A DNA stretch of 36,027 nucleotides, taken from NCBI GenBank assembly GCA_947629715.1, contig CANRET010000017.1, positions 1-36,027 of the forward strand. The letters run 5' to 3'. The notes under the pieces are model-generated. The model had not been told where the DNA came from and ran no database searches. It saw nothing but the letters and a program-made list of their open reading frames with translations. The position numbers were made by a program, and so were the translations under genes. Positions 7,950-32,272 of this stretch are shown piece by piece. Within the stretch, counting starts at the first letter, position 1, and the number at the start of each line of letters is the position of its first letter. This DNA is from an uncultured Akkermansia sp. GTDB taxonomy: Bacteria; Verrucomicrobiota; Verrucomicrobiia; Verrucomicrobiales; Akkermansiaceae.

Positions 7950-8291
7950 GCGGCAAGGGTATATAATCGCCTTGCCTCCGAGCGTGGGCTCAACCGCGTG
8001 ATGGTGGACGCCTATTCCTCCAAGAAGGGCTGTTACAGCATCCAGCACATCAACGCCTACCACGGCGGGTTGAAACGCTTTGTGCTGGATTTTAACGGAG
8101 TTTCCACGAAGCACCTGAACGACTATCTGCTCTGGTTTAACTTCGCGGCGTATGCCAAGGAGACATACACGGAGAAGATGCGTCTGCTGGTGCGTCACAT
8201 CATGACGGCTCAAAGCTACACGCGCCGAGTGGATGTCCCCAACCGTCCAGCTATTCCCTACATTTGTCAAGCGGTCAATAAAGTGGCGTAG
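7950..8291 (+). pseudogene. 3' remnant of an IS1595/ISXO2-type transposase
   Basis: The frame ending at 8291 reads like the C-terminal third of IS1595-family DDE transposases: YNRLASERGLN, then HINAYHGGLKRF, then FNGVSTKHLNDYLLWF. The catalytic DDE core and start that should precede it are absent; upstream is directly the end of adk. A GTG at 7998 could give a 97-residue product, but without the catalytic core it would be inactive. I read it as a decayed insertion sequence next to the restriction-modification gene. The family call rests on remembered motif similarity. Confidence 0.7.
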
Positions 8292-8401
8292 AACTTGCTT
8301 AAATAAGTGCTTGATACGTCCAACAAATGGGAACTATCCACTTGACTGCACCAACAGGTTTTTTGGAGGGAGGTGAGAATTTTGTTAGTTGTGAATTTTT
8401 C

Positions 8402-8430
8402 TTGTCGTAGGTAGGGAGGTGGGGTATATT
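8402..8430 (+). promoter_or_regulatory. Candidate promoter of the restriction-modification gene
   Basis: TTGTCG (8402-8407), 17-bp spacer ending in GGGG, TATATT (8425-8430). Transcription would start near 8437, about 20 nt before the ATG at 8457 and before the poly-G tract. This supports 8457 as the true start of the intact gene. Confidence 0.55.
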
Positions 8431-8483
8431 ACGCTTGAGGTATACTATATATAGTTATGCAAAACGCTGAAAATCAATATATC

Positions 8484-8492
8484 GGGGGGGGG
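8484..8492 (+). repeat. Poly-G tract (nine G), likely phase-variation switch
   Basis: An uninterrupted run of nine G lies nine codons after the ATG at 8457. With nine G the frame from 8457 meets TAG straight after the tract (8493-8495), giving only 12 codons. With 8 or 11 G it runs without a stop into the frame of the large enzyme at 8689. The downstream frame is open upstream to 8455 but has no ATG, GTG or TTG before 8689. Poly-G slippage is a known cause of phase-variable restriction-modification genes. Confidence 0.8.
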
Positions 8493-8688
8493 TAGCAATC
8501 CTCTAAGGGAGAATGAGTTAGGCAGTGGGTGTAAAGTTTGCACGCAGCGCGATGGAGTTGAAAATGAGCCGCTGCAACAGGTTGAAGGTTTTGAGAGGAA
8601 GGAAACATTCCGCGAAGTTATTGAGCAAGTTAGGGAGAAGACGAAGGATTCGTCTCAGTCGGAGAAGGGTACGCGCTTTGAGGAGCTG

Positions 8689-11600
8689 ATGCGTCGCTTT
8701 TTTCAGTATGATCCGGCGTATAAGCATCGTTTTTCCAGTGTATGCCTTTGGGGGGATTGGCCTTACCGCAACGGTATGCACGACACAGGAATAGACCTCG
8801 TTGCCAAGGAGCGCGTCTCGGGCAGATATGTGGGCATCCAGTGCAAATTCTACGATAGCGAAACCCTCTATTTGAGTGCTGTCAGTACCTTTTTCACGAC
8901 GCTCACCATGAAGTGGGACACGGACAATGGTCCCGACGACACCTTCGTGGGTGGGATTATTATCAACACTTGCAATCTTGCGAGCGATAATCTTACAGAG
9001 ACTATTAAAAATCATAGTGTTCCTTGCGCTTTTATAGGATTGTCTGAGTTGGAGAGTTGGGAGGGAATTGACTGGGGAGCGTTGAGAAGGGGACAAGCAT
9101 ACGATATTCCCAAGAAAGAATTGCGCCACCACCAAGAAGAAGCTGTCAATGCTGTGGTGGGGGCATTCCGTAACGGCACAGAGAGAGGCAAGATGATTAT
9201 GGCGTGCGGCACGGGTAAAACCTTTACATCCCTGCGCTTGACGGAGAAATACACTGGCGGGAAAGGTTGCGTGCTCTTCCTTGCTCCCAGTATTGCTCTC
9301 GTCTCGCAGAGTCTCCGAGAGTGGATGAACCAGACAAAATGCAAGATGCACCCTATCGCCGTCTGCTCGGATTCCAGTGCTTCTGCTGTCGATGAAAACT
9401 ATGACCTTGCCGCAGCAAATCTTCCATCCCCTGCCACCACCGACCCTGAGGAGATTGCTAGAAACTACCGACGTTTCAAAGATACCCATCTGACGGTCAT
9501 TTTCTCCACCTATCAATCCCTCGACAAAGTTTGTAAGGCTCAGGCAGCAGGTTCTCTCCCGGAGTTCGACCTCACCATCTGCGATGAAGCCCACCGCACT
9601 GCCGGTCCTTCTGTCATGGTAAATGGGGAAAGAGCAGAGACTGATTTCCGCCGTGTTCATGAGCAGAAAGAACTCAAGAGCAAGAGACGCCTCTACATGA
9701 CAGCTACGCCAAAGGTGTACAGTGATGCTGTACACGAAAAAGCGAAACGCACGGAGGGAGTGACGTTGGCAGACATGAATGACGTCTCGACCTTCGGCGA
9801 GGAGCTGTACTGCCTCCCTTTCTCTGAAGCTGTGCGTAAAGAGTTGCTCACAGATTACAAGGTGCTCGTACTGTGGGTGGACGAGACGTACGTGAAGGAG
9901 TTGATGGGATCACAACATAAACAGGGAGAAGAAGAGCAATTTGAGATGGAGGATGCCGTCAAACTTGTCGGCTGCTACAACGGTTTACGCAAGAAAATGT
10001 ACATTGCCCATGGTGACTCCATGGCTGACATGATGGGCATCAGTGAGGAAGAGTACGACAAGAAACGCCCTGAGCTTCTCAACTGGCAAGAAGATCATAT
10101 CAACGACTTTCTGCGCAGTGACCCCGACCCCATGCTCCGAGCCGTAGCCTTCTCCGGCAACATTCCGAATTCTAAGGCCTATGCTGAGCTGTGGAAACAT
10201 GTCGTCAAGACCATCAGGGAGAGTGAGAACACTAATACGCCGTTCGATAGCGAGATGCACCATGTGGACGGCGAGATGGGTATGAACGAGCGCGAGCGCG
10301 AACTCCTCTGGCTTAAGGATAAAGACTCAACAAAATGCCGCATTCTTACCAATGCTAAGTGTCTCTCGGAGGGCGTGGATGTACCGGCTTTGGATGCCAT
10401 CATGTTCCTTGCACCCAAGAAGAGCCAGATCGACATCGTGCAATCCGTTGGACGTGTGATGCGCAAAGACCCCTCCGGCAAAAAGAAGTTCGGCTATGTG
10501 ATTATCCCTGTCGGCGTTCCGAGTGGGGCAAAAGCAGAGGACGTGCTGGATGATGATAAGCGTTTCAAGGTCGTCTGGCAGGTGCTTCAGGCTCTCCGTG
10601 CTCATGATGACCGCTTTGATGCCGAAATCAACGCCCTTGAATTCAATAGGCGTAACAGCAAGCACATCTCACAGGGGGTCGTCACAAAACCGTTGCCAGA
10701 TTCCCCCGGCGAGAATGGCGACACGGAATACGTGGAGGGATCTATCGAACAAAAAACCTTCCATGAGATTCTCGCTTTCACGAACAAAGTGCGGGAGATG
10801 AAAGATGCCGTATATACCCGCATGGTGTCCCGCGTCGGAGCTCGCATCTACTGGGAAAACTGGGTGAAGGATATTGCTGACATTGCAGAACGCCGCCGTC
10901 AGGCGATTGCAAACCTCATTCAGCAGCCGGACTGCTTACCAAGATTCCAAGAATTTAAGCAGGGGCTCAAGGAGAACATTCGCGAGAATATCGAAGATGA
11001 TGATGCCGTAGAGATGCTCGCGATGCAGTTCGTTTCCCGCCCGGTGTTCAATGCTCTTTTCGGTGAATACGAGTTTGCGGATAAAAACCCCGTGAGCGTC
11101 ACGATGAACGCTATGCTGGATTTCATTGAACAGCGTATCGGTTCAGAGGATGATAAGACAATGAAACGCTTCTACGAGGACGTGAAAACCCGCGCGGGCA
11201 GCATCACCACAACGGAGGGACGCCAGAGTGTCATCAAGGAACTCTACGAGAGCTTTTTCAAAAATGCCTTCAGGAAGATCGCCGATGCTCTCGGTATCGT
11301 TTATACCCCCATTCCTGTTGTGGATTTCATCCTCCACAGCGTCCACAAGGTGCTGCAAAAGGAATTCAATATCGCGGACGGCTTGAGCGCGGAGGGCGTA
11401 CGCATTCTTGACCCCTTCACAGGCACCGGCACCTTCATCGTACGCGCTATCCAGAGCGGACTGATCAAGAAGGAAGACCTGCCGCGCAAGTATGAAAAGG
11501 AACTTTTCGCCTCAGAAATCGTGCTTCTCGCCTACTACATTGCCTGTGTGAACATCGAGGTCGCTTACCACGGCACTACCGAACAAAAACAATACACTCC

Positions 11601-13524
11601 ATTCGGTGGCATCTGCTTTACCGATACCTTCCGTATGCACGAAAACAGCGCAAACGACCGTGACCTCTTCCCTGAGTTTGAGGAAAACGGTGAGCGTGTA
11701 AAAAATCTCTGCAAACAGGACATCCGCGTCATCATTGGCAACCCGCCGTATTCGATTGGACAGAGGAGAGGTGGTGACAACAACCAGAATCCGGACTGTC
11801 CCGAGGTTGATAAGAGAATTGCGGAGACGTATGCCGCTCGAAGCACGGCAGGCCTGAAGAAGGGACTTTATGATTCCTATATTCGTGCGTTCCGTTGGGC
11901 GAGTGACTGCATCAAAGGCGATGGCGTTCTTGCCTATGTGACCAATGGAGCTTACATTGACAACAACGCCATGGCGGGATTCCGCGAGTGCCTGATGGAT
12001 GAGTTCTCTTCCATCTATTGCTTCAATTTGAGAGGGAATTGCCGAACGCAGGGGGAACTCCGAAGAAAAGAAGCGGGTAATATCTTTGGTGAAGGCAGCC
12101 GCACTCCCGTTGCAATCATTGTGCTGGTGAAGCGTGCGGATCACGCGGCTGGACAGCGAGCCACATTGCATTACCACGACATTGGTGACTACAAGACCCG
12201 CGATGAGAAACTTCAAATTCTCAAGGACACCGTTGATATTGATGGAATCGACTGGACAACTCTCACCCCAGATAAAAACGGAGACTGGATTAACCACCGT
12301 ACTGATGACTACACTCAATTTATGCCGATTGGCGACAAGTTGGCAAAGGGTAAGGAGGATACAAAGGCTCTTTTTAGTATATTCTCCCTCGGCGTTGTGA
12401 CTGCCAGAGACCCATGGTGTTATAGGTATAGTCGCAATGGATTGCGAAATTCAATAGCTAGTAGCATCTCCTATTTCAATGCACAGGCAGATGCCTACGC
12501 TAAACGCAGTGGTGAGAAACAAGACATCAAAGACTTCATTGTGGTTGAAAAGGGAAAATTTGCTTGGAGCCATCTACAGTATATGGACGCTTCCAGAGGA
12601 AAAACATATACAATGGACGAGCAATCGTTGATTGTTGCCACGTACAGACCCTTTGTCAAGCAGTACTTGTATTTCAATAAAAGTTTGAACGCCCGTGTGT
12701 ATCAGATGCCTAAACTCTTTCCAACACCGAAGCATGATAACCTTGTAATCCAGATGATGGGAGTTGGATCTTCTAAATCATTCTCTTGCCTTATTTCTGA
12801 CACAGTTTCAGATTACCAGAGATTCTTCAACGGTCAATGCTTCCCGCTTTACTGGTATGAAAAGCAAGCGGACAGGGAAGGAATGCTGGAACTAGGAATG
12901 GAGGAAGCGAAGAGCGATTACATTCGCAGGGATGCCATCACGGATTGGGGGCACAAGGAATTCAAGCAAGCCTATGGCGACCCGAAAATCGGCAAGGAGG
13001 ACCTCTTCTACTACGTGTACGGACTTTTGCATAGCGAAGAATACCGCACCAAGTACGCCAACGACTTGAAAAAGGAACTGCCGCGCATACCTTTCGCCAA
13101 GGACTTCTGGGGCTTCAGTGAAGCCGGGCGCGAACTCGCCGCGCTGCATCTCAACTACGAAACGGTAGATCCCTATCCGCTGGAAGAGGAACACAACGGC
13201 GGAGACTACCGCATCGAGGGCAAAATGCGCTTTCCCAAGAAAGGCGAAAAGGACGCCATCATCTACAACAGCCACACCATCCTGCGCGGCATACCGGAAG
13301 AAGCCTACGAGTACATCGTGAACGGTAAATCCGCTATCGAATGGTTGATGGACCGTTACGCCGTCACCATGGACAAGGATAGTGGCATCGTGAACGACCC
13401 GAACGACTGGTGCACGGAACACAACAACCCGCGCTACATCATCGACCTCATCAAACGCATCGTCACCGTCAGCGTAAAAACCGTCAAAATCACCCGTGCC
13501 CTCCCCAAACTGGAAGAGCTATAA
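8689..13524 (+). CDS. Type ISP-like restriction-modification enzyme (nuclease-helicase-methyltransferase in one chain)
   Basis: A 1611-residue enzyme with the layout of the LlaGI/LlaBIII family. Residues 1-110 form an Mrr-like nuclease (GID at 34-36, QCK at 51-53). A superfamily 2 helicase/translocase follows: P-loop ACGTGKT 172-178, DEAH 299-302, motif VI QSVGRVMRK from 585. An N6-adenine methyltransferase carries DPFTGTG at 908-914 and NPPY at 1018-1021. The C-terminal ~350 residues should hold the target-recognition domain. Such enzymes methylate one strand and cut when translocating complexes collide. The ATG at 8689 cuts into the conserved N-terminal helix: the family-like KGTRFEEL lies just upstream. 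The full protein probably starts at 8457 and is about 77 residues longer when the poly-G length allows. In the present state it is OFF or truncated. Confidence 0.9.
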   Translation: MRRFFQYDPAYKHRFSSVCLWGDWPYRNGMHDTGIDLVAKERVSGRYVGIQCKFYDSETLYLSAVSTFFTTLTMKWDTDNGPDDTFVGGIIINTCNLASDNLTETIKNHSVPCAFIGLSELESWEGIDWGALRRGQAYDIPKKELRHHQEEAVNAVVGAFRNGTERGKMIMACGTGKTFTSLRLTEKYTGGKGCVLFLAPSIALVSQSLREWMNQTKCKMHPIAVCSDSSASAVDENYDLAAANLPSPATTDPEEIARNYRRFKDTHLTVIFSTYQSLDKVCKAQAAGSLPEFDLTICDEAHRTAGPSVMVNGERAETDFRRVHEQKELKSKRRLYMTATPKVYSDAVHEKAKRTEGVTLADMNDVSTFGEELYCLPFSEAVRKELLTDYKVLVLWVDETYVKELMGSQHKQGEEEQFEMEDAVKLVGCYNGLRKKMYIAHGDSMADMMGISEEEYDKKRPELLNWQEDHINDFLRSDPDPMLRAVAFSGNIPNSKAYAELWKHVVKTIRESENTNTPFDSEMHHVDGEMGMNERERELLWLKDKDSTKCRILTNAKCLSEGVDVPALDAIMFLAPKKSQIDIVQSVGRVMRKDPSGKKKFGYVIIPVGVPSGAKAEDVLDDDKRFKVVWQVLQALRAHDDRFDAEINALEFNRRNSKHISQGVVTKPLPDSPGENGDTEYVEGSIEQKTFHEILAFTNKVREMKDAVYTRMVSRVGARIYWENWVKDIADIAERRRQAIANLIQQPDCLPRFQEFKQGLKENIRENIEDDDAVEMLAMQFVSRPVFNALFGEYEFADKNPVSVTMNAMLDFIEQRIGSEDDKTMKRFYEDVKTRAGSITTTEGRQSVIKELYESFFKNAFRKIADALGIVYTPIPVVDFILHSVHKVLQKEFNIADGLSAEGVRILDPFTGTGTFIVRAIQSGLIKKEDLPRKYEKELFASEIVLLAYYIACVNIEVAYHGTTEQKQYTPFGGICFTDTFRMHENSANDRDLFPEFEENGERVKNLCKQDIRVIIGNPPYSIGQRRGGDNNQNPDCPEVDKRIAETYAARSTAGLKKGLYDSYIRAFRWASDCIKGDGVLAYVTNGAYIDNNAMAGFRECLMDEFSSIYCFNLRGNCRTQGELRRKEAGNIFGEGSRTPVAIIVLVKRADHAAGQRATLHYHDIGDYKTRDEKLQILKDTVDIDGIDWTTLTPDKNGDWINHRTDDYTQFMPIGDKLAKGKEDTKALFSIFSLGVVTARDPWCYRYSRNGLRNSIASSISYFNAQADAYAKRSGEKQDIKDFIVVEKGKFAWSHLQYMDASRGKTYTMDEQSLIVATYRPFVKQYLYFNKSLNARVYQMPKLFPTPKHDNLVIQMMGVGSSKSFSCLISDTVSDYQRFFNGQCFPLYWYEKQADREGMLELGMEEAKSDYIRRDAITDWGHKEFKQAYGDPKIGKEDLFYYVYGLLHSEEYRTKYANDLKKELPRIPFAKDFWGFSEAGRELAALHLNYETVDPYPLEEEHNGGDYRIEGKMRFPKKGEKDAIIYNSHTILRGIPEEAYEYIVNGKSAIEWLMDRYAVTMDKDSGIVNDPNDWCTEHNNPRYIIDLIKRIVTVSVKTVKITRALPKLEEL

Positions 13525-31280: not shown

Positions 31281-32150
31281 TCAGCGAGCCAGCGTGGTGA
31301 AGTCCAATCCGACGTCCAGGGCGGGGGATGAGTGAGTGAGGCAGCCGAAACTCATGAAGTCCACCCCGCTTTCAGCCGCCGCCGGTGCGGTCTGCAGGGT
31401 CAATCCTCCGCTCGCTTCGAAGAAAGGCTTGACGGATGCTCCTCGCATTTCAACGGCTTGTCGCATTTCCCCGGGACTCATGTTGTCCAGCAGGATGTAA
31501 TCTACGCCCTCCAGCTTGAGAAAGGCTTCTACCTGTTCCAAGCTGTCGGCTTCCAGCTCGACTTCCACACCGGGACGCTCGCTTTTGAGACGACGAATGC
31601 AGGTCTGCAGGTGCTCGGCATTGCCGTTTGTCATCAGGTGATTGTCTTTGACCATGGCTCGGTCGTAGAGGCCGAGGCGGTGGTTGGAGCCTCCGCCGTG
31701 CACCACGGCCGCTTTTTCCAGCAAACGATAGCCGGGCGTGGTTTTACGGGTGTCGAGCAGCTTGCACGAGGTGTGGGAAATGGCCTGTACGTAACGGCGC
31801 GTCATGGTGGCTATGCCAGAAAGGCGTTGGATGAAGTTCAGCGCCGTCCGCTCAGCCCCCAGGATAGAGCGAGCAGCTCCCCGGATAATCATGACAATCG
31901 CTTCGGGTGACACTTCATCGCCATCTGCCAACTGCACATCGACTTTAAGCGTGGGATCTACCGTCCGGAACACTTGCGCCGCCACTTCCACCCCGGAGAG
32001 CACGCCGCGCGCGCGAGGTCTCATAAGCGCTTGGGCTTGCAACGTTTCCGGCACAAAGTAAAGAGACGTGACATCTCCGCTGCCGAAATCCTCCTGCAGG
32101 GCGAGGCGGATCAATTCATCGCGGTTGTCGTTAACGCGCATGCTTTTCAT
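31281..32150 (-). CDS. nadC: Quinolinate phosphoribosyltransferase (nicotinate-nucleotide pyrophosphorylase)
   Basis: A 289-residue enzyme of NAD synthesis, converting quinolinate and PRPP to nicotinate mononucleotide. Recognised by LNFIQRLSGIAT, DTRKTTPGYRLLEK, HGGGSNHRLGLYD, MVKDNHL and the C-terminal FEASGGLT. The length is normal. The ATG is 6 nt after a strong promoter -10, so the mRNA should be leaderless. An operon with dprA. Confidence 0.96.
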   Translation of the reverse strand: MKSMRVNDNRDELIRLALQEDFGSGDVTSLYFVPETLQAQALMRPRARGVLSGVEVAAQVFRTVDPTLKVDVQLADGDEVSPEAIVMIIRGAARSILGAERTALNFIQRLSGIATMTRRYVQAISHTSCKLLDTRKTTPGYRLLEKAAVVHGGGSNHRLGLYDRAMVKDNHLMTNGNAEHLQTCIRRLKSERPGVEVELEADSLEQVEAFLKLEGVDYILLDNMSPGEMRQAVEMRGASVKPFFEASGGLTLQTAPAAAESGVDFMSFGCLTHSSPALDVGLDFTTLAR

Positions 32151-32263: not shown

Positions 32264-32272
32264 CCCCCCCCC
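32264..32272. repeat. Poly-C tract (nine C) in the nadC/HTH-gene intergenic region
   Basis: Nine C on the plus strand (nine G on the minus), the same length as the tract in the restriction-modification gene. It lies about 80 bp from the -35 boxes on either side and inside no recognisable gene. Length changes could alter spacing between unseen regulatory sites. Confidence 0.6.

Follow-up and report, generated by a model that had tools for sequence, protein, structure and literature searches.

Slipped-strand switching at a G tract is known in the genus Akkermansia from the A. muciniphila gene Amuc_1413, whose tract of nine G changed to ten G in culture, in 87–91% of reads (PMC13055324). Among restriction systems, phase-variable single-chain type IIG enzymes are known from Campylobacter jejuni and Helicobacter pylori (PMC4889913; PMC3936762), and for C. 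jejuni switching is reported to alter methylation and gene expression. For the type ISP genes of H. pylori, frameshifts are stated not to be due to repeats. The subject here is a stretch of 36,027 nucleotides from an uncultured Akkermansia sp. (assembly GCA_947629715.1, contig CANRET010000017.1, positions 1 to 36,027; hereafter the window), in which a type ISP restriction-modification gene is preceded by a short leader containing nine G. The tract shares genus, tract type and length with that of Amuc_1413, where slippage was observed (PMC13055324). It is very probable that the nine-G run acts as a slipped-strand ON/OFF switch within a translated leader, and that this leader is a portable 5′ module supplying the only usable start of the type ISP enzyme. 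The parts of the leader are as follows.

8402–8430, plus strand: promoter-like site, sigma-70-like (TTGTCG-17-TATATT), at a position relative to the ATG that is conserved among leaders.
8457–8595, plus strand: leader, consisting of the start codon, nine codons, the G tract and a stop-free spacer, aligned at 16 tract-bearing loci, G072 and L206.
8457–8459, plus strand: leader start codon, ATG.
8484–8492, plus strand: nine-G tract where slippage is proposed, in the OFF state in the assembly; 7–11 G or C8 at other loci.
8493–8495, plus strand: TAG stop, read at nine G.

Translated from the ATG at 8457, the nine-G sequence gives MQNAENQYIGGG and then a stop (12 codons), and with 7 or 10 G the frame stops after 15–16 codons. 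With 8 or 11 G it continues for 1688 or 1689 amino acids, respectively. The downstream frame is free of stops from 8455 to its stop codon at 13522–13524, and its earliest ATG, GTG or TTG is at 8689, leaving 78 codons without an ordinary start. The original prediction, made from the letters of the window, had claimed this anatomy, a promoter at the ATG, the joining of the frames at 8 or 11 G and the open frame back to 8455, all of which were borne out. A ribosome starting at 8457 would thus read into the enzyme at 8 or 11 G (ON) and would halt within about 16 codons at 9 or 10 G (OFF, the assembled state).

The abundance of poly-G was considered as evidence and dropped, as runs of at least nine G occur at roughly the expected frequency. 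The composition of the window predicts about 0.2 such runs for the window itself and about 13 G runs per 2.2 Mb, and the observed 8-mer count was matched in 8 of 100 shuffles. A run of nine G by itself is ordinary for this composition and the case therefore rests on its context; it is the conserved context, not the G run, that exceeds chance.

The gene behind the leader has the Pfam domains of a type ISP enzyme in their usual order (Mrr_cat_2, ResIII, Helicase_C, ISP_coupler, N6_Mtase and Type_ISP_C), with E-values of 5e-108 for Type_ISP_C and 1e-35 for ISP_coupler.

8455–13524, plus strand: type ISP frame (Pfam, translation).
8596–8688, plus strand: family-conserved enzyme N-terminus, ahead of the first internal ATG (aligned with LlaBIII 4xqk from query residue 48; starting point of leaderless homologues).
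8707–9093, plus strand: Mrr-like nuclease (Pfam).
9115–9714 and a C-terminal part, plus strand: helicase (Pfam).
10849–11217, plus strand: coupler (Pfam).
11230–11760, plus strand: N6 methylase (Pfam).
12370–13449, plus strand: Type_ISP_C specificity domain (Pfam).

The best solved matches, LlaBIII (PDB 4xqk) and LlaGI (PDB 5ffj), have the same domain order and align over nearly the whole protein, which is accordingly assigned as a type ISP restriction-modification enzyme, predicted to carry out N6-adenine methylation and cleavage. The 47-residue G-tract leader, however, has no counterpart in LlaBIII, residue 11 of which pairs with residue 48 of the query (window position 8596), 31 residues before the methionine at 8689. 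Of the family-like residues (EKGTRFEEL) that had been noted upstream of the internal ATG, GTRFEEL belongs to this aligned segment. Leaderless homologues in six Akkermansia genomes (G066, G030, G023, G059, G052 and G040; G, C and L numbers are our handles for genomes, contigs and loci) have an ATG or GTG no more than four codons from the position of 8596, so that homology and native starts do not begin at 8689, the outcome that would have counted against the original prediction. Constitutive translation from 8689, which would make the tract irrelevant, is therefore highly unlikely: although GAGGAG precedes this ATG and the annotated nuclease domain, from 8707, would be left almost whole, the product would lose 31 family-conserved residues including GTRFEEL, the matching codon is Ile in G046, G020 and L206, and the leaderless homologues begin about 30 codons earlier. 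Because the LlaBIII homology begins at 8596, the internal ATG is not the native start, and since the 31 conserved residues before it have no start of their own, no ordinary start other than the leader ATG could yield the whole enzyme.

The leader is not confined to this gene. In a full-frame search, residues 1–52 also matched beside unrelated genes, and the leader was found at 17 further tract-bearing loci, of which 16 belong to Akkermansia genomes and the last to a contig in a Bacilli bin. The aligned leaders have in common a sigma-70-type promoter, a block near CTAGTTATGCA, about nine codons, 7–11 G and a spacer with CTQRE..ANEPLQQ; those of the acyltransferase genes diverge more 3′ of the tract, and the type B leader has the promoter TTGATA-17-TATAAT. 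By DNA and pattern searches, only some members of the genus carry the leader: the pattern TATGCA-N9..14-AAYATAT-N0..20-G6 occurs in 9 of 76 genus genomes and its reversed control in none, as was the case for all reversed-pattern controls. One acyltransferase-leader relative, G056:C99, lies outside the start pattern and was left out of scoring. The order-wide pattern search gave a single match outside the genus, apparently unrelated. A contig scan beyond the genus returned at least 117 stretches, of which two (L206 and L174) were examined further; L206 apart, the non-Akkermansia stretches among the matches listed look like chance. A search for plasmid relatives found none. The relatives with names are metagenome-assembled genomes (MAGs) entitled 'uncultured Akkermansia sp. 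isolate Lapin-...', where 'Lapin' presumably refers to rabbit gut.

Four kinds of cargo are found behind the tract-bearing leaders; representatives were checked by Pfam and the others assigned by sequence similarity.

Type ISP, n = 8: the window, G020:C62, G046:C4, G055, G056, G048, G072 and L206.
Type I (hsdRMS), n = 5: G008, G026 and G016 intact, G046:C16 without hsdR, G042 with truncated hsdR.
Type III (mod-res), n = 1: G000:C33.
Acyltransferase-3, n = 4: G020:C52, G016:C5, G020:C45 and G046:C109.

The switch proposed originally for the type ISP gene is thus supported for that gene and is not specific to it, as the same leader also serves type I, type III and acyltransferase genes. On this reading the leader is foreign to the enzyme, a portable module of promoter, start, G tract and stop-free spacer. 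In the type ISP and acyltransferase-3 genes it is joined in frame to the gene, and a frame switch of an N-terminal fusion is a well-supported mechanism for these. In the type I and III operons the ON frame of the leader is a short upstream frame that ends 18–23 nucleotides before the first gene, for which reason translational coupling or Rho-type polarity would, on balance, be the probable route there. The idea that the leader is fused directly to hsdR or mod was dropped: apart from the truncated hsdR of G042, neither gene can be brought into frame with it at any tract length.

The cargo is exchanged behind the leader. At one chromosomal site, type I genes in one species (G042) take the place of a type ISP gene in another (G046:C4). 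The flanks are 95–99% identical from about −1658 to +149 and the leaders 94–95%; the two sequences part where the leader ends, at +149, and an 81% match resumes downstream. Leaders group by lineage and not by cargo: that of the window shares 81% identity with the leader of the type III locus and 78% with the one before the G008 type I genes, as against 63–68% with four other type ISP leaders. Two tract-less leaders (G000:C9 and G026:C60) precede a D12-type methyltransferase gene. The first (L325; G000:C9:23299-25400) is a relic in which GTG replaces ATG, located behind an IS1595 transposase relic; its D12 methyltransferase is confirmed by Pfam, and an EcoRI-like nuclease comes next.

Each of the 18 tract-bearing loci has one tract length that opens a long frame. 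Tract lengths range from 7 to 11, with C8 at a single locus (G048) where its 92.5% identical relative G055 has G9. As assembled, 4 of the 18 are ON (G055 with 9 G, G072 with 8 G, L206 with 9 G and the type I leader of G016) and 14 are OFF; the three type ISP copies among the four are naturally in frame. Length differs between close species. Three type I loci that are 95–96% identical over more than 4 kb have 11, 8 and 9 G with a single other indel, outside the leader, and two acyltransferase orthologues, 95% identical, have 9 and 8 G. Two features of a contingency locus are therefore present, in that repeat length sets the frame of an intact gene and varies among relatives beyond the variation of the flanks; a third, reversible length change within one population, is predicted, with Amuc_1413 as the precedent in the genus.

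These length differences also bear on the possibility that the assembled tract is an error or a fixed frameshift, the real tract having 8 or 11 G and the gene being always ON, or the gene being dead. All members are metagenome-assembled, so that reported lengths could be a mixed-template consensus or a miscall, to which nine-base homopolymers are open, and damaged cargo is seen in G056 and G042. Against this, the tract occupies the same position in 17 other loci, where its length varies from 7 to 11, and the window frame is intact over 1689 codons, unlike a decaying gene; this explanation is considered improbable. Several of the observations nonetheless weigh against a switch. The tract length of the locus is that of a metagenome assembly, no Shine-Dalgarno sequence is visible upstream of the ATG at 8457, the 14 OFF copies would also fit some decayed genes, the cargo of G056 is truncated even in its best frame, and the role of the leader is less certain for type I systems because their first gene has its own ribosome-binding site.

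The reading frames of the spacer were compared across loci. In all 12 leaders examined, no stop interrupts the ON frame from the tract to the conserved block, and each of the other two frames has 1–6. The ON frame stays open despite 576 non-synonymous and 62 synonymous codon differences in pairwise comparison, and no purifying selection on the leader peptide was seen (322, 314 and 267 differences at the successive codon positions). This is how a translated segment would look if its openness were kept and its peptide not conserved. Long homopolymers can also slip in transcription or translation, and steady low expression by slippage on the G run with the DNA length unchanged would account for the intact bodies of OFF copies. 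A programmed site would, however, be expected to be constant, and here length, base (C8 in G048) and position all vary; with slippage at the DNA level documented in the genus (PMC13055324), there is little chance that such expression explains the locus. If DNA slippage is the mechanism, each leader-bearing gene is probably randomly switchable in single cells and, for the restriction systems, a mixed population of restricting and non-restricting cells is likely. Such switching within a population would yield cells that differ in methylation, restriction or surface acylation.

The left boundary of the leader offers hints of carriage by a transposon.

7952–8327, plus strand: 3′-end relic of an IS1595-type transposase gene, together with the first part of an older type B leader promoter (TTGATA, interrupted within its spacer).
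8329–8351, plus strand: GGGAACTATCCACTTGACTGCAC, which resembles a terminal repeat and marks the left edge of the type A leader unit.

Upstream flanks at three other loci match the relic, at 94% identity in G048, 93% in G046:C4 and 91% in G042. The fragment itself has no Pfam match; a related open reading frame (ORF) in G000:C9 matches PF12762 (DDE_Tnp_IS1595). Three type A units, those of the window, G020:C62 and L206, have GGGAACTATCCACTTGACTGCAC as their exact left end, and their left flanks are unrelated; in the window the unit lies within the older type B promoter. G000:C33 has an inverted GGGAACTATCCACTTGACTGCAC on the far side of mod, res and the gene for an IS1595 transposase. A search of the window for a right repeat, allowing up to 3 mismatches, gave none, and transposition is for this reason a lead, not a result. 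L206 (CANQOR010000018.1, 2912–8000), a Bacilli-binned contig from the same 'Lapin' project, holds the leader and a type ISP gene that is ON at 9 G. Its left flank has a G+C content of 38% compared with 49% for the unit, which would reflect either transfer or misbinning. Tentatively, an IS1595-type element with promoter, start codon and poly-G inside its left end might serve as a cargo-independent switch that moves between species, possibly phyla, with its restriction cargo exchanged. If so, any defence gene joined to such an element would become phase-variable.

Other homopolymer tracts were observed in the window and in the same species group. Nine C at 32264–32272 (plus strand) lie between the gene at 31281–32150 and an ORF from about 32403, and no frame depends on them. 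At G000:C28:2442 nine G interrupt an apparent glycosyltransferase family 2 gene, where the long frame ends just past the tract and another frame runs for 117 amino acids. At G000:C16:4188 a poly-C tract precedes the signal peptide of an outer-membrane beta-barrel protein, with a nearby ATG out of frame at 9 C. A second slipped-strand family (G000:C5:16604, G000:C41:18115; L311, L315–L319 and L321–L324) consists of secreted proteins, often of about 510 amino acids, in which a poly-C tract follows a short leader (M..IVATPP) and precedes the signal peptide. The tract has 7–11 C, or 21 in one copy where the contig ends; the C5 copy, with ankyrin repeats, is in frame and the C41 copy is out of frame. 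Read on the opposite strand, the acyltransferase leader 3′ of the G tract (GGGGGGGGTAGCGACGATG; L141 and L143) matches exactly the ankyrin-family leader 5′ of the C tract, possibly through recombination between tracts.

In the literature searched, with most subscription journals outside its scope, no report was found of a repeat-switched type ISP enzyme or of a single switch leader common to several restriction types. The leader provides a simple sequence motif by which phase-variable defence can be looked for in gut commensals, and makes testable the idea that switching itself is what is transferred; one reason could be that a restriction system carries less risk for its new host while silent. 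Among the known systems, the cps1 inverton of Akkermansia (PMC13343947) also switches expression by phase in this genus, but by DNA inversion and not frame slippage. In Amuc_1413, a single exopolysaccharide gene, the tract belongs to the coding sequence itself (PMC13055324), whereas the window tract is in a shared leader. The phase-variable type IIG systems of C. jejuni and H. pylori are likewise single-chain enzymes switched by a homopolymer, but are of another enzyme type, and the available excerpts of these reports do not describe a leader common to several restriction types (PMC4889913; PMC3936762). Poly-G phase variation of restriction systems is thus known gene by gene, while here one 5′ module appears to make type ISP, type I, type III and surface acyltransferase genes switchable, with the cargo exchanged behind it.
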